Source: Spirochaetes bacterium ADurb.BinA120
GTDB taxonomy: Bacteria > Spirochaetota > UBA4802 > UBA5368
DNA length: 37,905 nt
Assembly: GCA_002069125.1 (NCBI GenBank)
Contig: MVZN01000025.1
Location: 1-37,905, forward strand
Direction: 5' to 3'
Below the pieces are notes generated by a model. It searched no databases. It was not told the DNA's origin and saw only the letters and a program-made list of their open reading frames with translations. Shown piece by piece: positions 15,844 through 26,954 of this stretch. The position numbers were made by a program, and so were the translations under genes. Positions within the stretch are counted from its first letter, which is position 1. Each line of letters opens with the position of its first letter.

Positions 15844-16989
15844 ATGCAATCACCCGCTTACTACGAGTATTTGGGCCGGCCCAAAATGATTTCCGGCAAA
15901 AGGGCGCTGGAGCAGATTCCGGCGGAGCTGGAGGGCTATGGGGCGTCAAGGCCCCTCGTCATGGTGGAGGGCGCGACACCGGGCGTAGGTGCGGCCATTA
16001 CGAAGGCCATGTACGATTCGAACCTCGTCATAGGGGCCCTTTTCGACGGTCATGTGGCCGGCTCCACCTCTGGAATCGTTCGGGAGCTCGCCGGGCTCCA
16101 TGCGGCTCGTAAGTGCGATTCCATAGTCGTTGCGGGCGGAGGCCCGCTGGTGGACGCGGCAAAATGCGTAAATATCGAGCTTACTCAAAAGAAGGCGGCC
16201 ATACAGTTCTCCGGAGAGAACAAAATTCCCAAGGAGCTTGGCCCCTTCGTCCTTGTGCCCGTTGCGCTCGTCTCCGGATACGAGGCCTCTCGTTACGCCT
16301 TCATCGATGGGAAGATGTGCGGCTCGGATTTTCTGTCTCCGGACATGGTGATCATCGATTCCCGTGCAAGCTCTAAAGCCGCTCCGGCCCAGACGCTTTC
16401 ATCCGGGCTCATAGCCCTGGCGCACGCCATAGAGGCTATACTCTCGCCGCAAGCCAATCCCATAATGGGCTCCTATGCCTACGCCGCGATACGGCTGTTG
16501 AGCGAGAATCTGCCCGCGGCGGTCAGAAAGCCCAAAGACGGCAAAAAATCCGTCGCGGTAGCCAACGGATGCGCGATAGCCGCCACGGCCTTTTCGAACG
16601 CGCCGGCAGGGGTGGTCCATTGCCTTGCCGAGGCCCTTTCCGACGCCACCGGCGTGGACCCGGGCGTTTACATGGGAATTTTGGTGCGCTCGCTGGTGCG
16701 AAAGCGCATGGAGGACAAAGCGGGGCTTGGCGACGAGCTATGCCTGGCCCTGTCTGGCCCGGCGGTCTATTCCGTAAGCGAGGCCAAAAGGCGGCCGGAG
16801 GCCGCTCTTCAATCCCTTAATTCCGTTTTCGGGGAGCTTGGAAACGCCGTCCCCGCGGACCTGGCCGCTACGGGTACGCCAGAAGGTCAATTGGGCCCGG
16901 CGGCTAAAAATGCCGTTAAGGCGAGTTCCGCAAAGCTGTCCGAAAAGGAATGCATGGACCTGCTCGAAAGAGCCTGGGGCGGGAAATGA
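15844..16989 (+). CDS. Degenerate iron-containing alcohol dehydrogenase homologue, probably inactive
   Basis: A 381-residue protein of the iron-ADH fold, clearly related to the gene at 17613 (opening PAYYEYLGRPKMISGKRAL versus PDYYEFCARVKTVAGHRAL). The catalytic features are lost: the nucleotide loop GGGSVMDTAK is GGGPLVDAAK; the TTSGTGSE motif is ALVSGYEA; the metal ligands expected as Asp-His-His-His read Ile190, His194, His259 and Pro273; the catalytic-site His is Glu263. The reading frame is intact and the ribosome binding site (AAGGGAG) is good, so it is maintained. It probably serves as a regulatory or structural partner of the active enzyme; that is inference. Confidence 0.8.
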   Translation: MQSPAYYEYLGRPKMISGKRALEQIPAELEGYGASRPLVMVEGATPGVGAAITKAMYDSNLVIGALFDGHVAGSTSGIVRELAGLHAARKCDSIVVAGGGPLVDAAKCVNIELTQKKAAIQFSGENKIPKELGPFVLVPVALVSGYEASRYAFIDGKMCGSDFLSPDMVIIDSRASSKAAPAQTLSSGLIALAHAIEAILSPQANPIMGSYAYAAIRLLSENLPAAVRKPKDGKKSVAVANGCAIAATAFSNAPAGVVHCLAEALSDATGVDPGVYMGILVRSLVRKRMEDKAGLGDELCLALSGPAVYSVSEAKRRPEAALQSLNSVFGELGNAVPADLAATGTPEGQLGPAAKNAVKASSAKLSEKECMDLLERAWGGK

Positions 16990-17612: not shown

Positions 17613-18863
17613 ATGTTTCTTCCCGATTATTATGAATTCTGCGCGAGAGTTAAAACCGTGGCCGGTCACAGGGCGCTTGACAGAATACCGGAGCTGCTTT
17701 CCTCGCTCGGATCCTCCCGGCCCATGATAGTTACGGACAGGGGCGTGGTTGGGGCCGGCCTCATCAAGCTCGTAAACGCCGCCATGAAGGGCTCTAAGGC
17801 GAAGATCGGGGCGCTCTACGACGAGACGCCGCCCGATTCCGAATATACCGTGGTGAACTCGGTGGCAAAACTCTACCGCGCGAAAAAATGCGATTCGATT
17901 CTGGCCGTGGGCGGGGGTTCCGTAATGGACACGGCCAAGGGGGTGAACATACTCGCCTCCCTTGGCGGGTCGAACATTCAGGATTACGAGGGGGCGGGAG
18001 CCGTAAGACGAAAGCTCAAGCCCCTGATAGCCATCCCGACCACCTCGGGTACGGGTTCCGAGGTGACCCTGGTGGCCGTAATCGCCGACCATAAGCGAAA
18101 GGTAAAGATCCCCTTTACATCCTATTTTCTACTTCCGGACATAGCGCTCCTCGACTCGCGCATGACGAAAACCCTTCCGCCATTTCTTACCGCACCCACA
18201 GCCATGGACGCGCTTACGCACGCCTGCGAGGCCTACTATTGCCTGGCCAAAAACCCGCTGAGCGACGCGACGGCCATCGCCGCGATAAGGCTTATAAGCG
18301 CCAACCTGCTCAAGGTCATAAAAAAGCCGGGCGACCTCCAGGGGAGGCTGGACCTGGCCAACGGCGCCATCCTTGCCGGAATGGCGTTCTCGAATTCCAT
18401 GGTCGGCATAGTGCACAACCTGGGGCATGCCACAGGCGGCGTTTGCGGAGTGCCGCACGGCGTGTGCATGAGCCTTTTCCTGCCATACGGTTTGGAATAC
18501 AATCTGCACAAACGCGCCGGCGAGATAGGAGAGCTTTTGTTTCCGCTGGCAGGTCCCGAGGTTTATGCCGCCACCCCGGTAAAGCAGAGGCCGGAGAAGA
18601 CGATAGAATATATTCGCGGGATGAACCAGGACCTCCACGACGCCACAGGGGGGCGTCACGCGCGCTTTTTAAAAGAGATCGTGGACCGGGATGGAAGGCA
18701 GCTCGTACCGGTGGAAAAGCTTCCGGAAATAGCGAGGACCGCCCAGGGGGACGGGACAAAGGTTTACAATCCCGAGGATGTAAGCTACGACGACGCCCTC
18801 ATGGTGCTCGAACACGCCTATGAGGGAAAGCCGCTCGACAGGAAAAGGATAAAGAAGGGCTAA
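17613..18863 (+). CDS. Iron-containing alcohol dehydrogenase
   Basis: A complete group III, iron-dependent alcohol dehydrogenase of 416 residues. It shows the NAD(P) motif GGGSVMDTAK (100-109), IPTTSGTGSE (141-150), the metal ligands Asp199, His203, His268 and His282 (in MDALTHACEAY and VHNLGHATGGVCGVPHG), and the helical C-terminal domain. The likely reaction is reversible NAD(P)-linked reduction of an aldehyde or ketone in the cytoplasm; substrate is unknown. An AAAGGAG ribosome binding site precedes the ATG. It is the third gene of the operon, after an inactive homologue and the SCP2-like gene, and is followed by a strong hairpin. Confidence 0.92.
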   Translation: MFLPDYYEFCARVKTVAGHRALDRIPELLSSLGSSRPMIVTDRGVVGAGLIKLVNAAMKGSKAKIGALYDETPPDSEYTVVNSVAKLYRAKKCDSILAVGGGSVMDTAKGVNILASLGGSNIQDYEGAGAVRRKLKPLIAIPTTSGTGSEVTLVAVIADHKRKVKIPFTSYFLLPDIALLDSRMTKTLPPFLTAPTAMDALTHACEAYYCLAKNPLSDATAIAAIRLISANLLKVIKKPGDLQGRLDLANGAILAGMAFSNSMVGIVHNLGHATGGVCGVPHGVCMSLFLPYGLEYNLHKRAGEIGELLFPLAGPEVYAATPVKQRPEKTIEYIRGMNQDLHDATGGRHARFLKEIVDRDGRQLVPVEKLPEIARTAQGDGTKVYNPEDVSYDDALMVLEHAYEGKPLDRKRIKKG

Positions 18864-19141: not shown

Positions 19142-21223
19142 TCAGCCCTTTTTCCGCCGTTTGTTTTCAGATGACTCGGAAGGCTCTTCGGCTTTCGATG
19201 TCCCGGCGGCCCCGGTGGCGTCCTGTGGCATCTCTCTTATCACCCCGAATACCCTGTTGGTTGCCCTGCTGTACTCGGCCTGTGAATGTACCACAAGTAC
19301 GGACTTGTCGGCCCTGCGTATCTTGAAGACCACCTCGTACTTTTCATTGTGTTTTACGAGCCTCTCAAGCGCTTTGTCGAGCATGGGGCGGTATTCGGGC
19401 AGGGCCAGGTTCTGGACATCGGCCAGTGGAAGGTCGCCGTCCCCAAGCCCGTAAATCCGCCTGGACTCCGATGAGCCGGTTGCCACGCGCCTCTCGAGGT
19501 CGAACTCCCAGTACCCAAGACCGAACATGTCGAACGCGCGCTCCATGAGGCTCTTGTTGGATTTCAATTCATCGTGCGCATTGCGGATATCGGTGATGTC
19601 GGTGAATGATGTGAAGACCATGTAGGGCCACTCTTCGGCCTCCCTGAAGATGGGATTCGCGCTTACCGAGAGCCATCGGTATGTGTCGATTTCAGGATTA
19701 TATACTCCCATGATGAAGTTTTCAACCCTCTTGCCGGTCGCCAGAGAAAGCATGGAGGGATGCTCTTCGCCGGGGAGGACCGAGCCGTCCTCGCGTATAG
19801 CCTTCCATCGAGGGTCGGCGGATGTGCGCCCCATAAGCTGGTCCATGGTCATGCCGAGCAGCCGCGCCGCCGCCGGATTGGCGTCTATAATGGGGCCCTC
19901 CGCGGACTGGTAAACGACCCCCTGGGACATGGTTTCGAAAAGGGAGCGGAATTTTTGTTCCGAGGCCTGCAGCGCCCTGTCGAAGATTATTCGGTCGGTT
20001 ATGTCCCTGAACAAGGTGGCGAATTGTCCCCGGACGGGGCTGAAGGCCACCACCTCGTAATGGCAGGCGAGCGGAGCGGAAAAATATTCGAAGTGATCGG
20101 GCTTCATGGAGAGGGCCACGGCCCCGTATCGCTCTATCAATTCCGGTTCGGCGCCTGGCAGTACTTCGAGCACGGTCCTGCCGACTATGTCCGCCGCCTT
20201 TAGCCCGGTAAGCCTTTCGAACGCCGGGTTGACATGGAGGAAGCGGTAGTCGATGGGCCTCTCCTTTTCGTCGAGGATTATCTCGTGCACCGCGAAGCCA
20301 CTGAGCAGGGATTCGAAGAGCAGGCGGTAATCGCTTTCGCTTTTTGTGAGCGCTTCCAGCGTATGAATAAGCTCCTCGTTGGTGACCTCCTGTTCCTCTA
20401 TGGCGGCCTGAAGCTCTTCGTTGGCCGCGGTAAGCTCCTCGTTTGCCTTTAGCAGCGCCTGTCGCAGCCTGAGCTCTTCGGTAATATCCTCTCCGATTTT
20501 GCTGGTTGCAAGAGGCTCCCCGCCGGGACCGTACAGTATCGTTCTATTCCAGCGGACAATCATCGGCTTCCCGGCCTTGTTGACGAGTGTTTCGTCGAAG
20601 TGAAGGGGCAGCCGGTCGGTTCGAAGCGCTTCCCGGCGTGACCGCCGCAACTCCTCCGGGTTATTGCCGGAATGAAAAACGGCGAACCAGTCCGAGCCGA
20701 GCAATTCGTCCCTCGTATAGCCCGTAGTTTCGAGCATGTAGTCGTTGCAGAAGAGTATGGTCCCGTCCATGTCGAGCTGTACGGCGAAGAGTCGGGCGTT
20801 GGCGAGCGAATCGCGGAACCTGCGCTCGCTTTCGCGGAGTTTGGCTTCCGCGCGGTGCAGCACCACGGCGGACTCTATATTGGAGTACAGGTCGCGTTCG
20901 TGGATTGGCTTGTTGAGGTAGGTGTAAGGCAGCGTGTCCTGGGCCCGGTCCACGGTCGCCCTGTCGGCGTTGGCGGTTAGATAGATTATGGGGATGTCCC
21001 GATTCCTTCGGATCGCCCTTGCGGCCTCGATTCCGTCCATCTTCCCCGCAAGAAGAATGTCCATCAATATGATGTCCGGGTCGAGCGAAAGGGCCTTCTC
21101 GATTGCGGCCTCGCCTGTCGCGGCTGTCCCGGCGACCTCATAGCCGAGCCCGACAAGAATGCTTTGCACGTCGAGCGATATTATGGTTTCATCTTCAACG
21201 ATGAGGACACGGGTTTTTCTCAT
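19142..21223 (-). CDS. Response-regulator receiver with four PAS domains, no output domain
   Basis: The start is ATG 21223 (GGAAG upstream, promoter at the right distance); a further upstream frame is discarded. The 693-residue protein begins with a CheY-like receiver: acidic pocket Glu10/Asp11, phospho-acceptor Asp55 in IILMDILL, and Lys105 in YLNKP. Four PAS segments follow (about 135-255, 310-415, 435-550 and 565-670), with a coiled-coil rich in Glu/Asn (ANEELTAANEELQAAIEEQE) after the first. The protein ends in a Ser/Glu/Lys-rich tail. No histidine kinase, GGDEF, EAL or DNA-binding domain is present. It may pass a phosphorylation signal to a partner by protein contact; that is inferred. 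Confidence 0.85.
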   Translation of the reverse strand: MRKTRVLIVEDETIISLDVQSILVGLGYEVAGTAATGEAAIEKALSLDPDIILMDILLAGKMDGIEAARAIRRNRDIPIIYLTANADRATVDRAQDTLPYTYLNKPIHERDLYSNIESAVVLHRAEAKLRESERRFRDSLANARLFAVQLDMDGTILFCNDYMLETTGYTRDELLGSDWFAVFHSGNNPEELRRSRREALRTDRLPLHFDETLVNKAGKPMIVRWNRTILYGPGGEPLATSKIGEDITEELRLRQALLKANEELTAANEELQAAIEEQEVTNEELIHTLEALTKSESDYRLLFESLLSGFAVHEIILDEKERPIDYRFLHVNPAFERLTGLKAADIVGRTVLEVLPGAEPELIERYGAVALSMKPDHFEYFSAPLACHYEVVAFSPVRGQFATLFRDITDRIIFDRALQASEQKFRSLFETMSQGVVYQSAEGPIIDANPAAARLLGMTMDQLMGRTSADPRWKAIREDGSVLPGEEHPSMLSLATGKRVENFIMGVYNPEIDTYRWLSVSANPIFREAEEWPYMVFTSFTDITDIRNAHDELKSNKSLMERAFDMFGLGYWEFDLERRVATGSSESRRIYGLGDGDLPLADVQNLALPEYRPMLDKALERLVKHNEKYEVVFKIRRADKSVLVVHSQAEYSRATNRVFGVIREMPQDATGAAGTSKAEEPSESSENKRRKKG

Positions 21224-21259
21224 GTAGTATCGTCTTCCCTTATGGATAGGTTGGACACT

Positions 21260-21287
21260 ATTATATCGCGCTTGACGATGATTGCAA
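21260..21287 (-). promoter_or_regulatory. Promoter of the REC-PAS gene
   Basis: On the minus strand a TTGCAA box (21282-21287) and a perfect TATAAT (21260-21265) are 16 bp apart. The -10 ends 36 bp before the ATG at 21223, which supports that start. Confidence 0.65.
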
Positions 21288-21330
21288 GCAGATTTGCTGA
21301 CGGTTGTCATCTATCGAATTTCATGCCATC

Positions 21331-21359
21331 TTGACTTTAAGCCCGGGCCATGGTATGCT
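21331..21359 (+). promoter_or_regulatory. Promoter of the SDR/radical-SAM gene
   Basis: TTGACT (21331-21336) and TATGCT (21354-21359) are exactly 17 bp apart. Transcription would begin near 21366, so the ATG at 21350 could not be used and the start at 21383 is favoured. It is divergent from the REC-PAS promoter. Confidence 0.65.
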
Positions 21360-21382: not shown

Positions 21383-23278
21383 ATGCCTTCGCGATATGAT
21401 TATTACGGAAAGGCCGTTCTTTTGACCGGGGCCAGCGGCGGGCTGGGCTCGTCGCTCGCGCGCATGCTCGCCGGAGAGGGGGCGCGCCTCATCCTTTCGG
21501 CCCGGTCCAAAACGGCGCTCGGGGAGCTTCGTTCCTCGCTCCCCGATCCCGGTGCCGCGCATATCCTCACGGCGGACCTCTCCGTACCCGGCGAGGCGGT
21601 CAGGCTGGCTAACGAGGCCGTGGCGGTTTTAGGCGGGGTCGATGTTGTATTTAACAACGCGGGCCTTGGGTACTTCGCCACCATGGAGGAGGCGGACGAG
21701 GGACGGCTGAGATATCTTTTCGAGGTGAACCTGTTCGCTCCGCTTGCCATCGCTCGCGCTCTGGCGCCGGACATGAGGAGGCGGGGAAGCGGGCGAATCG
21801 TAAACATTGTCAGCTTCGCCGGACGTGTGCCGATCGTTACGAACGGCGCCTACGGCGGTAGCAAGTCGGCCCTGGCCATCATGATGAATACCATGCGCCT
21901 TGAGCTTGCCGGGACCGGTGTCGACGTGCTGAACATCTACCCCGGCACCGCGGCCACCTCCTTCGAGGAAAACGCGCTTCGCGAGCCTGGACGCGACAGG
22001 CTGTGCCCAAGGGAGAGCTGCGGAGAGGGGCGCGACGATGTGGCCCGTGCCGTGTTCGAGGCTTCCAAGGGCCCGCCCGGCGAGAAGTGGCTGGACCGCG
22101 GCGGCCGCATGATGGCCATACTCGCCCTGTTGTGGCCCCGTCGCGTGGAGAAAAGGCTCGAACCGTTAAAGCTTCGCGCCGTGGGCGGCCCCGGAGGCCG
22201 GGCGAGGCCGCGTAAATGGCGGCTCTGGCAGGTCGAGACATCCATAGCCTGCAACCTGAACTGCGTCATGTGCCCATGGGGAAGCGAACGCGTCGCTGCG
22301 GGGGCCGGAGGCCTCATGAAGGAGGAGGTGTGGGCCGCGCTTAGGGGCCGCCTTTCCGAGGTATCCTCCATCGATTTTTCGGGAGGCGGCGAGGCGCTCC
22401 TCAATCCGGAGCTTCCCCGCTGGATTCGCGAGGCCAGGGACGCCGGGTGCGAAACCGGCTTTCTTACTAACGGCCTGCTTTTGGACAGCGGCCGCGCCCG
22501 CGCAATCATCGACGCTGGCGTCGACTGGATCGCAATCTCTATCGACGGCGCCACGGCCGATGTTTACGATTCCATCCGAAGGGGAGCGAGCTTCGAGAGG
22601 CTGATTGCGAACCTGGAGGGTCTGGTTTCGCTCATAGCAGGGGGCCGGCCGCGCCTAATCATCAACTTTGTAATGATGGAGAGCAACATCCACCAACTCG
22701 AGGACATGGTAAGGCTGGCGGCCCGCTATTCATTCGGACGGATCAATTTCAAGCAGTGCGACGTAATTCGCGGGGAATCGGGGAAGGGATATGGCCTCTT
22801 CGGCGGCTCGCGCAGTCGGGAGATTCGAAGCTACGAGAGGATAATGAAAAAGGCGCACCGCCTGGGGAGGCGGCTGGGGGTGGAGGTTGCCGGCTTTTCG
22901 TTCGTGCCGGAGGAACAGCCCGTCTGCGCTCAGGATCCCCGGTCCTCGCTCTTTGTTCGTTTCGACGGCCATGTAGCTCCCTGTGTCAACCTGGCCTATG
23001 GCGGCAGGACCACCTGGCTTGGAAAAGACGTAACGATGCCGACCATTCACTACGGCAGGCTTCACGACCACGGCATCGACGCTCTGTGGGAGACCCCCCT
23101 TTGCGGATTATACCGCACCCGCTTCGAGGAGAGGGAGAGGGCCTATAATGAAAAGCTCGCCACCTACGACCGCGAGCCCTCGCTCGAGCACCTCAGGCGC
23201 CTGGAGGAGGAGGCGCTTAGGTCCATGCCCGAACCGCCCGAGGGCTGTGGTGTCTGCCATTATCTCTACGGTATTTAA
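21383..23278 (+). CDS. Fusion of short-chain dehydrogenase/reductase with radical-SAM/SPASM-like enzyme
   Basis: A single open frame of 631 residues. Residues 1-250 are a classic SDR: TGASGGLGS (15-23), NNAG (91-94), catalytic Ser144, Tyr157 and Lys161 (YGGSK), and YPG (186-188). Residues 280-480 are a radical-SAM domain with the cluster motif Cys290-x3-Cys294-x2-Cys297 (ACNLNCVMCPWG), the SGGGEALL SAM-binding strand and SIDG. The C-terminus has extra cysteines (515, 534, 574, 622, 625) as in SPASM or auxiliary-cluster proteins. Both halves look catalytically complete. One product might make a radical-modified intermediate that the other oxidises or reduces; substrate unknown. No peptide substrate gene is visible nearby. 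Confidence 0.85.
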   Translation: MPSRYDYYGKAVLLTGASGGLGSSLARMLAGEGARLILSARSKTALGELRSSLPDPGAAHILTADLSVPGEAVRLANEAVAVLGGVDVVFNNAGLGYFATMEEADEGRLRYLFEVNLFAPLAIARALAPDMRRRGSGRIVNIVSFAGRVPIVTNGAYGGSKSALAIMMNTMRLELAGTGVDVLNIYPGTAATSFEENALREPGRDRLCPRESCGEGRDDVARAVFEASKGPPGEKWLDRGGRMMAILALLWPRRVEKRLEPLKLRAVGGPGGRARPRKWRLWQVETSIACNLNCVMCPWGSERVAAGAGGLMKEEVWAALRGRLSEVSSIDFSGGGEALLNPELPRWIREARDAGCETGFLTNGLLLDSGRARAIIDAGVDWIAISIDGATADVYDSIRRGASFERLIANLEGLVSLIAGGRPRLIINFVMMESNIHQLEDMVRLAARYSFGRINFKQCDVIRGESGKGYGLFGGSRSREIRSYERIMKKAHRLGRRLGVEVAGFSFVPEEQPVCAQDPRSSLFVRFDGHVAPCVNLAYGGRTTWLGKDVTMPTIHYGRLHDHGIDALWETPLCGLYRTRFEERERAYNEKLATYDREPSLEHLRRLEEEALRSMPEPPEGCGVCHYLYGI

Positions 23279-23383: not shown

Positions 23384-23427
23384 GAGACAGGGGATACATA
23401 AGGTAAGAGAGGGTAGGTAGAGAGTAG

Positions 23428-23490
23428 ATGGATCAACAGAGTGGTCCCCCACAGGTGAGGGGGAAGGTTCGTACCGCGAAGGGCTTATAA
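23428..23490 (+). CDS. Possible 20-residue small reading frame within the small RNA
   Basis: ATG at 23428 is preceded by GGTAGAGAG and opens a frame MDQQSGPPQVRGKVRTAKGL that stops at TAA 23488-23490, inside the 5' arm of the terminator hairpin. A ribosome ending here would disturb the hairpin, as in attenuation. No homologue is known to me; it may be chance. Confidence 0.2.
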   Translation: MDQQSGPPQVRGKVRTAKGL

Positions 23491-23525
23491 TCCGGACTCG
23501 GAAAGATTATAAGCCCTTCGTCTTT
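23477..23525 (+). terminator. Strong intrinsic terminator (15-bp perfect stem)
   Basis: CGAAGGGCTTATAAT (23477-23491) pairs without mismatch with ATTATAAGCCCTTCG (23506-23520); the 14-nt loop can pair further (CCG/CGG). It is followed by TCTTTTATAAT. This is the clearest terminator of the window. It ends the small unit and any read-through from the radical-SAM gene. Confidence 0.85.
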
Positions 23526-23587
23526 TATAATGTCCATTTTTCCCCCGCTCACTCATTTTTTATTCCGGCCGACGATTCTTTAATGGC

Positions 23588-23661: not shown

Positions 23662-24189
23662 ATGAAAACACTCTTTCGCAGCGCCCTAAAGATGTCCATT
23701 GTCCCGATTTTGGCGCTTGCCGCCTCGTGCACAATTTGGAACGCCCGCCAGTGGGAGAACCTGGAGGACAGGTCCTTCTACTTCCAGAGATTCTCCTATT
23801 ACCTAAAGGGAGCGGACCGGCGTACGGCCTTCGAATTTATGCGCGATTTTCCCCTGGACGACGCCCTTCGTATAGTCGCCGAGAGGTACTCGATCGTAAT
23901 AGACTCCTCGGAATTCCGGTCCTTTATGGAGGATCCGGAAAACGAGCGGCGTCTCGAGGTGTACGGGGTGATATTGAGCGAACGGTTTACATGGCGGTCC
24001 AAAAACGCCAACGATAATACGATCGAACTGGAATACGCCAACGAGTTCAAGGAGGAATCGACCGATACCATAAGGCGCTATTCGCTTACCTTAAGGTCGG
24101 GCGGCAAGGTCCGCGCGGTTTTAGGCGACACGGTGGATAAGCGCGAGGACGTTCCGTCCAGCCTCTCCGAGATTTCGCGGCGCAGATAA
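23662..24189 (+). CDS. Hypothetical lipoprotein
   Basis: A 175-residue protein with a lipoprotein signal peptide (basic N-terminus, hydrophobic 12-21, lipobox LAASC with Cys23). The mature part is a mix of short helices and strands, rich in Arg, Glu and Asp (RFSYYLKGADRRTAFEFMRDFPLDDALRIVAERYS; TIELEYANEFKEES). No family is recognised. A GGAG sits about 12 nt before the ATG. The hydrolase gene follows after 15 bp, so the two are probably co-transcribed. Envelope location follows from the signal peptide; nothing more can be said of function. Confidence 0.7.
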   Translation: MKTLFRSALKMSIVPILALAASCTIWNARQWENLEDRSFYFQRFSYYLKGADRRTAFEFMRDFPLDDALRIVAERYSIVIDSSEFRSFMEDPENERRLEVYGVILSERFTWRSKNANDNTIELEYANEFKEESTDTIRRYSLTLRSGGKVRAVLGDTVDKREDVPSSLSEISRRR

Positions 24190-25164: not shown

Positions 25165-25860
25165 ATGGATCTAATACTTACGGGAATCGTGGAGGCCTTC
25201 CGCCTTCTTGTAACGCTGGACGACGAGATACTTCGCGTTACGCTTCTGTCGCTACAGATCTCGGGCAGCGCGACCCTCGTAAGCCTCGTGCTGGGAGTAA
25301 GCTCAGGCACCGCCATCGCTCTTTCCGAGTTTCCCGGCAAACGCCTTGTCGTGAGCGCCATAAACACCGGCATGGGGCTTCCGCCGGTGGTCGTTGGCCT
25401 CTTCGTCACGATATTCATATGGCGCAACGGGCCGTTCGGATTTCTCGGCATGCTGTACACCCCGTCGGCCATGGTGCTGGCGCAGGCCATCATCGCAACG
25501 CCCATCGTTACCGGCATAAGCTTTGCGGCCATTCAGCACCTTCCCGACAAGCTGAGGCTGCAGATTCTGTCTCTCGGGGCCACCAGAGCGCAGATGGTCT
25601 GGATGCTCATGCGCGAGGCGCGCCTTCCTATACTGGCGGCGGTGATGGCCGGTTTCGGGGGAGTGATCTCGGAGATAGGCGCCTCCATCATGGTGGGGGG
25701 GAATATCAAGGGGTACACAAGGGTGCTGACTACGGCCACGGTAATGGAGACCAGCCGGGGTAATTTCGATGTAGCCATCGCCCTGTCGATCATTCTGCTC
25801 ATGCTTACCTTTACGATCAACTACATACTGACGTCCATCCAGCAGAGGGGCGGCCGGTGA
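25165..25860 (+). CDS. tupB: Tungstate-type ABC transporter permease TupB
   Basis: A 231-residue integral membrane protein with about five to six membrane helices. It matches the TupB/WtpB-like permeases of tungstate importers: N-terminal TLLSLQISGSATLVSLVLGVSSG, central LPPVVVGLFVTIFIWRNGPFGFLG, and the EAA loop LGATRAQMVWMLMREARLPILAAVMAGFG that docks onto the ATPase. TupB delivers tungstate (sometimes molybdate) across the inner membrane for molybdo/tungsto-enzymes. ATG 25165 has GGAG upstream. The next gene overlaps by 4 bp (GTGA). The periplasmic tungstate-binding protein TupA is not next to it. Confidence 0.85.
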   Translation: MDLILTGIVEAFRLLVTLDDEILRVTLLSLQISGSATLVSLVLGVSSGTAIALSEFPGKRLVVSAINTGMGLPPVVVGLFVTIFIWRNGPFGFLGMLYTPSAMVLAQAIIATPIVTGISFAAIQHLPDKLRLQILSLGATRAQMVWMLMREARLPILAAVMAGFGGVISEIGASIMVGGNIKGYTRVLTTATVMETSRGNFDVAIALSIILLMLTFTINYILTSIQQRGGR

Positions 25861-26954
25861 AGCGCGGGGGCAAAACCGCCCTCACGGTAAACGGCCTGCT
25901 GGTTGAGGTTGGCGGGACGGTGATACTAAATGTACCCCGGCTCGCCCTTGCGCCCGGAGAGGTGCTGGCGATAATTGGGCCGAACGGGGCCGGTAAAACC
26001 ACGCTGCTTACCTCGGTTTTGGGCATTCAGAGATATAAAAGCAAAGGGATCGTTACCCGGGGAGATCTGGCTTTTCCCGGCACGCCCCCGCACATCTATA
26101 GGCGCGGGTTCTCCATGGTCTTTCAGGATTCGCTGCTTTTCAACGCCTCGGTTTTCGACAACGTGGCCTCCGGCCTGAGGATTAGAGGTGTGGGGCGCTG
26201 GGAAGTGAAGAAGAGGGTCGACGAACAGCTCGAGCGCTTCGGTATAGCCGCGCTTGGCGAAAGAAGGGCCCTCTCGCTCTCCGGCGGCGAGGCCCAGCGT
26301 GTAAGCCTCGCGCGGGCCATGGCCACCTCTCCGGAGGTTCTGCTTCTGGACGAGCCCTTCGCGTCGCTGGATACCCCGACACGGGAATCCATCCTCGACG
26401 ACCTGGAGAGGGCGCTCTCCGGATCGGGCACGGCGGTAATGCTTGTAACTCACGACCGGGTGGAGACGCTGCGCCTTGCCGACAGGGTCCTGGTGCTGGA
26501 AAAGGGAAAGATCCTGCAGGAGGGCGAGACTATCGATGTTCTCCGGCGGCCCGCCAGTGAATTTGTGGCGTCTTTCGCGGGCACCGAAACCGTCCTGGCC
26601 GGAAGGGTGGCGCGAAGCGGAGGCGGCATCGTCGTTGTCGCGGCCTCGGGCCTGGAGGTGGAGGCGGCCGGGGAGGCGAACAAGGGTCAGAGGGTGGCGC
26701 TCTGCATACGGCCGGAGAATATCGTCCTGGCCTCGGCGGGCAGGACGAAGACCAGCGCGCGCAATACATACCAGGGCAGGGTGGAGCGGCTTATGCCGAT
26801 GGCGCATTATTACAAGGCCGTTATCGATTGCGGTTTTCCGCTGGTTGCCTACGTTACGCAGCAGTCCATGGATGAGATGGGCCTTCGCGAAGGGCTTCGC
26901 GTCCATGCCTCGTTCAAGGCGACCTCCGTGCATCTGATTAAAAAAGAGCATTAG
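25857..26954 (+). CDS. tupC: Tungstate-type ABC transporter ATPase TupC with C-terminal regulatory domain
   Basis: A 365-residue ABC ATPase that powers TupB. It starts with GTG in the overlap GTGA. Motifs: Walker A GPNGAGKTT (41-49), Q-loop MVFQDSLLFN, signature LSGGEAQRVSLARA, Walker B LLLDEPFASLD and the switch His in VTHD. Residues about 240-365 form a TOBE/MOP-like domain (LAGRVARSGGGIVVVAASGLEVE..., VALCIRPENIVLA) of the kind that binds oxyanions in ModC and may regulate uptake. Assignment as tungstate rather than molybdate ATPase is by its partner TupB. Confidence 0.85.
   Translation: MKRGGKTALTVNGLLVEVGGTVILNVPRLALAPGEVLAIIGPNGAGKTTLLTSVLGIQRYKSKGIVTRGDLAFPGTPPHIYRRGFSMVFQDSLLFNASVFDNVASGLRIRGVGRWEVKKRVDEQLERFGIAALGERRALSLSGGEAQRVSLARAMATSPEVLLLDEPFASLDTPTRESILDDLERALSGSGTAVMLVTHDRVETLRLADRVLVLEKGKILQEGETIDVLRRPASEFVASFAGTETVLAGRVARSGGGIVVVAASGLEVEAAGEANKGQRVALCIRPENIVLASAGRTKTSARNTYQGRVERLMPMAHYYKAVIDCGFPLVAYVTQQSMDEMGLREGLRVHASFKATSVHLIKKEH

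Follow-up and report, generated by a model that had tools for sequence, protein, structure and literature searches.

Two described systems are precedents for the chemistry proposed for the gene reported here. BtrN converts a secondary alcohol into a ketone by radical oxidation (PMC9012708), and in AprD4/AprD3 a radical-SAM enzyme and its dedicated NADPH-dependent partner reductase work on one substrate (PMC5461906). The twitch domain of BtrN holds one fully ligated cluster, with a cysteine on either side of a beta-hairpin and a further two beyond helix alpha-2'. The SPASM domain is defined by a motif of seven cysteines, CX9-15GX4C-gap-CX2CX5CX3C-gap-C, and possession of a twitch domain does not predict reaction type (PMC6231123). 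Short-chain dehydrogenases (SDRs) and radical-SAM enzymes are both very common enzyme families. A single chain containing both was found in none of the curated family libraries, solved structures, plasmids and open papers searched, and the pairing described here is real, conserved and lineage-restricted and appears to be undescribed.

An SDR and a radical-SAM domain in one gene

The window (the whole stretch of 37,905 nucleotides that was analyzed) is the entire contig C25 of its source genome, which comprises 3.5 Mb in 216 contigs and is an estimated 96% complete. An ORF of 631 aa at 21383-23278 (+) translates without internal stops, and translation, Pfam searches and homolog alignment agree with the original prediction that an SDR and a radical-SAM enzyme are encoded by this single gene. 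Both Pfam domains are above cut-off, with adh_short (PF00106) on residues 10-197 (E=8.6e-43, 146.5 bits against 26.6) and Radical_SAM (PF04055) on residues 286-445 (E=4.9e-17, 63.0 bits against 29.5). The SDR domain spans residues ~5-265 (21395-22177, +) and is that of a classical SDR, with a TGASGGLG cofactor loop, NNAG, the Ser-Tyr-xxx-Lys residues S144-Y157-K161 (aligned with those of 26 SDRs), a basic SARS stretch after beta-2 and C-terminal helices. Because the end of beta-2 is basic and not acidic, SDR rules suggest that this half prefers NADP(H). A hypervariable interdomain linker (residues ~266-279, 22178-22219, +) is followed by the radical-SAM core (residues ~280-460, 22220-22762, +), a PF04055 member with CxxxCxxC at residues 290-297 (22250-22273) and an SGGGE motif, and then by a twitch-like auxiliary-cluster domain (22880-23275, +).

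Alignments of all four fused homologs begin at the 21383 start, and an alternative in-frame ATG at 21350 overlaps a -10-like hexamer at 21354-21359. A consensus scan gave a sigma-70-like promoter, TTGACT-17-TATGCT with a TG extended -10 (21331-21359, +). The gene thus plausibly has a candidate promoter of its own, as had been claimed, in the form of a consensus match only.

Whole-genome searches placed the fusion in 4 of 393 Spirochaetota genomes. These are the window's own genome (G000), its congener G001, and G005 and G007, which form a second genus of the same family; all are MAGs of uncultured spirochaetes. Identity to the window protein is 82-83% for G001, 74% for G005 and 73% for G007 over the full length. 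A short-peptide-pattern scan of one genome per species across 84,980 prokaryote species, the reach of which is close relatives only, returned just two loci, and both were full-length fusions in Spirochaetes MAGs (G001 and G007, at 82% and 73% identity). No match to the fusion was found in viral contigs, and although 3,645 plasmid records match one half, none spans 80% of the fusion. A 645-aa open frame in G043 that holds an SDR (L103) was rejected as a further fusion because only its SDR part is a recognizable protein.

One concern is the fact that the named sources are MAGs, so that two genes could have been joined by sequencing or assembly error. This is extremely improbable, since the same junction occurs in four independent assemblies at 73-83% identity and in two genomic contexts. 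Such an error would have left separate-gene homologs elsewhere; the search instead recovered full-length fused homologs in three further MAGs, and no split version exists in either carrier genus. Pairwise dN is ~0.10-0.22 and dS ~0.7-1.5 in either half (dN/dS ~0.1-0.2). The claim that both halves keep their catalytic motifs also held, as each of the four fused proteins has Ser144/Tyr157/Lys161, Cys290/294/297 and Cys356/515/534/574/622/625; Cys290/294/297 are invariant in a stand-alone homolog from G006 as well. The common junction, the low dN/dS and the conserved catalytic residues together exclude chance or assembly error as the source of the fusion.

Linker residues 266-279 are only 28-78% identical among the fused proteins and show raised dN. 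Equal purifying selection on both halves with a free linker fits two working catalytic domains that are kept together, and the sequence bears the mark of two domains that fold and are under selection, joined by a flexible tether. An AlphaFold2 model made with 48 sequences (mean pLDDT 86, pTM 0.70) showed a disordered linker at 269-275 (pLDDT <50); a model from 5 sequences was poor (pLDDT 55). The core region is badly aligned for the distant stand-alone radical-SAM sequences in the 48-sequence alignment, and confidence there comes mainly from the fused and G006 sequences. A Foldseek search gave only SDRs among the best 50 of at least 2,000 PDB candidates, led by 3m1a, HSD17B13 and an Rv0851c ortholog, and the fold matches also include 11beta-HSD1. 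These last similarities bear on another explanation, in which both halves are active on different substrates and the fusion serves for co-expression or as a membrane-binding or dimerization module. An SDR resembling the membrane-associated HSD17B13/11beta-HSD type might anchor the protein or bind a hydrophobic alcohol, and the HSD17B13 and 11beta-HSD1 matches, the C-terminal helices that the model places at 239-267 and the long flexible linker are consistent with this. However, the SDR catalytic residues are intact in all copies and the fusion is unsplit throughout both carrier genera, which makes this explanation improbable.

The radical-SAM clade and its auxiliary-cluster domain

The nearest NCBIfam models over the radical-SAM core are TIGR04311 (rSAM_Geo_metal, 130 bits against a cut-off of 400) and TIGR04317 (W_rSAM_matur, 113 against 380). 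Both are putative maturases of metalloenzymes or tungsten enzymes, and genomes of the host family carry many AOR-type enzymes, with 4-8 in each, so it could be proposed that the fusion modifies a peptide or protein, as a RiPP or metalloenzyme maturase to which the SDR adds a second change. This is quite improbable. Scores so far under the cut-offs led to rejection of membership in either family, and none of the AOR homologs of the genome is on the window's contig. The same genome does encode a genuine TIGR04311 protein (553 bits), on contig C21 and divergent from an adjoining AOR gene, but in the tree it lies apart from the fusion. Furthermore, the domain at the N-terminus is an SDR instead of a peptide-binding one, the full SPASM motif is absent, and the fusions have no conserved small ORF beside them. 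A nearby RiPP precursor was also rejected, as no small ORF is common to the genera and the within-genus matches resemble antisense echoes of neighboring REC-PAS and transporter genes.

Maximum-likelihood analysis places the fused proteins in one group (support 100/97) with stand-alone proteins from G006, G048, G060 and G100 and a paralog on contig C80 of the window genome, and this group is placed apart from TIGR04311 members of the same genus. These sequence comparisons indicate that the radical-SAM half belongs to an uncharacterized clade separate from TIGR04311/TIGR04317. G006, which represents a third genus of the family, carries the radical-SAM half alone (365 aa, 45% identity), beside histidine-kinase and Dsr/Hmc-like redox genes. 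No SDR lies within ~9 kb on either side of it, and no close relative of the SDR half was found in the G006 genome at E<=1e-25; the nearest unfused SDRs in the phylum are only ~28-41% identical to that half. As the radical-SAM half occurs by itself in the third genus, the likeliest history is that an SDR was joined once, at the N-terminus, to a radical-SAM gene that already existed, either before the two carrier genera diverged or ahead of a transfer from one to the other. A reverse history, in which the SDR was lost in G006, is less likely. On contig C31 of G006 (L021), the redox genes by the radical-SAM gene are DsrMKJOP-like and Hmc/Tmc-like, as assigned mainly by eye from sequence.

The five additional C-terminal cysteines of the original prediction were all found (515, 534, 574, 622 and 625), in the conserved pattern C515-x18-C534, then C574, then C622-x2-C625. 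C515, C534, C622 and C625 are shared with the stand-alone members of the clade, and C574 with G006 only. Cysteines 515 and 534 and the CxxC at 622-625 flank predicted strands 522-532 and helices 572-614. With five conserved C-terminal cysteines and a SPASM (PF13186) match on residues 515-578 that is just below cut-off (20.9 against 21.5 bits), SPASM-domain membership was rejected. The pattern fits the one-cluster layout of the BtrN twitch rather than SPASM, and a single auxiliary cluster is predicted.

Gene neighborhoods of the fusion

A gene for a REC and PAS protein does lie divergent from the fusion (19142-21310, -; Pfam), as had been noted, but the suggestion that it places the fusion under sensory control was not supported. 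An ortholog occupies the equivalent locus in G003 and G004, both of which lack the fusion, and no orthologous REC-PAS gene is found beside the G005 and G007 fusions. Pfam detects no output domain in the protein. The REC-PAS gene is therefore a neighbor and not a specific partner, and synteny rules it out as a dedicated regulator of the fusion. Genes for an MttB-type methyltransferase and a corrinoid protein lie beside REC-PAS in G003 and G004 and past the fusion in G001; this cluster occurs by REC-PAS in the congeners (L041:3600-6070, L026:3786-5870 and L040) and is missing at this position in the window. Two tandem homologs of iron-type alcohol dehydrogenases are found further upstream in the window (15844-16989 and 17613-18863, +), of which the first is shorter, scores much lower on all Fe-ADH models and may be diverged or catalytically altered.

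On the 3' side, the fusion is followed by homologs of V_hyp, an alpha/beta hydrolase, TupB and TupC. These are colinear in relatives without the fusion, and an operon with the tungstate transporter or the alpha/beta hydrolase was rejected on that basis. The TupB/TupC-type genes (25165-26954, +) have no directly adjoining binding-protein gene; other contigs of the genome encode several AOR-type (tungsten enzyme) homologs. A conserved structured intergenic element at 23392-23530 (+), upstream of the gene at 23662, has a 15-bp stem, a T-rich tail and a fold z of -3.6; it recurs with 81-91% DNA identity at the equivalent position of G002, G003 and G004 and matches no Rfam family. It is a candidate small RNA of the genus and is not tied to the fusion. 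A sulfonate link through an Xsc gene 8 kb from the G005 fusion was also set aside, since Xsc belongs to the core gene set of the family, being present in 7 of 8 genomes, which makes its proximity uninformative.

Comparison of homolog neighborhoods, which had been proposed as a check, revealed two different contexts across the genera and one recurring neighbor of the clade, a PF03601/YeiH-like transporter. In G005 and G007 it is tail-to-tail with the fusion (~100 and 80 bp apart), in G048 and G060 it precedes the stand-alone radical-SAM gene by 58 and 83 bp, and in G006 it is ~11 kb away. These transporters occur in several arrangements (L018:11590-13125, L010:4778-6370, L024:7945-9261 and L023:19-1089), and most have long N-terminal extensions. 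Of 59 relatives, 8 have a PF03601 match above cut-off, whereas for the 6 carriers of the radical-SAM clade counted among these relatives (G000, G001, G005, G006, G007 and G048) the figure is 5, giving a Fisher p of 6e-5 with kinship ignored and p of ~0.07-0.08 within and outside the family taken separately. The transporter is a possible functional partner of the clade. However, there is no PF03601 match in the window's own genome, so the link is a lead and not a requirement.

A possible two-step reaction and its nearest parallels

The original suggestion that one substrate passes through two steps on the fusion is reasonable, given that co-translation is conserved and that the two halves are equally constrained. 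In the best-supported reading, which is still tentative, the protein would be a single-gene oxidoreductase with two active sites: a ketone would be formed by radical oxidation or by dehydration and then reduced by the fused SDR. The radical-SAM/twitch half would cleave SAM to form a 5'-deoxyadenosyl radical, which would abstract a hydrogen from the carbinol carbon of a small alcohol, a polyol or a lipid-like alcohol. The substrate radical would then become a ketone, either by oxidation through the auxiliary [4Fe-4S] cluster (as in BtrN) or by loss of water (as in AprD4), and the tethered SDR would reduce the ketone with NADPH. The net outcome would be a hydroxyl that is inverted (epimerization) or removed (deoxygenation). 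Cluster binding, cofactor preference, the order of steps and a common substrate are what we infer in this scheme. No conserved partner gene or small ORF common to both genera was found beside the fusion, so both steps would have to occur in one chain or through general metabolism. The stand-alone G006 version, with no SDR nearby, counts against this reading, as the radical step does not always depend on a reductase of the fused type. The remark that no known pathway suggests itself still stands.

The best PDB sequence matches of the radical-SAM half are BlsE (E=1.8e-10), PqqE, SkfB, MoaA, DesII and BtrN. The sugar-acting BlsE, DesII and BtrN are in line with the radical oxidation and SDR reduction proposed above, though as a counterpoint the BtrN similarity is weak. 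All are similarities at the level of the core that do not fix the reaction. The radical-SAM half could instead perform other small-molecule chemistry, such as a BlsE-like decarboxylation, C-C bond formation or a rearrangement, with the SDR oxidizing the substrate before or reducing it after. BlsE, a decarboxylase, is the top match, and twitch sequence does not reveal reaction type (PMC6231123), but the BlsE match is limited to the core and no biosynthetic cluster surrounds any fused homolog. This alternative is somewhat unlikely. If the reading with radical oxidation and SDR reduction in turn is correct, an oxygen-sensitive radical step and an ordinary hydride step are coupled in one chain, the search for the substrate is simplified to one gene without an operon, and a ready-made two-step catalyst is available that inverts or removes unactivated hydroxyl groups. 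A more far-reaching and unlikely reading is a natural bifunctional enzyme of anaerobic spirochaetes that covalently couples radical-SAM oxidation or dehydration to NADPH-dependent SDR reduction for net radical epimerization or deoxygenation of an alcohol, possibly a metabolite carried by a PF03601/YeiH-type transporter. The finding also draws attention to a functionally uncharacterized radical-SAM clade tied to a PF03601 transporter.

The fusion differs from each of the known systems nearest to it. TIGR04311 and TIGR04317 are the closest curated models over its core, but it reaches about one third of their cut-offs, falls in a separate clade and coexists with a genuine TIGR04311 member elsewhere in the genome. 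The stand-alone G006, G048, G060 and G100 proteins share its clade but have no SDR domain. PRK06181/PRK09072 and HSD17B13-type SDRs are the best NCBIfam and fold neighbors of the SDR half, yet it is below the curated cut-off of the former (147 against 215 bits) and none of these SDRs has a fused radical-SAM domain. BtrN likewise has a radical-SAM core followed by a similar four-cysteine layout, but it is 250-270 aa long, lacks an SDR and acts on 2-deoxy-scyllo-inosamine, whereas the fusion additionally has conserved C574 and, towards the C-terminus, a longer helical insert. Its match to the fusion (E=0.0017, 20.7 bits) is restricted to the core and not full-length, and membership in the BtrN/2-DOIA dehydrogenase family was rejected. 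The apramycin enzymes AprD4/AprD3, a radical-SAM diol dehydratase and its reductase, are likened to the fusion by functional analogy only; they are two partner enzymes of an aminoglycoside pathway, whereas the window protein is one chain.
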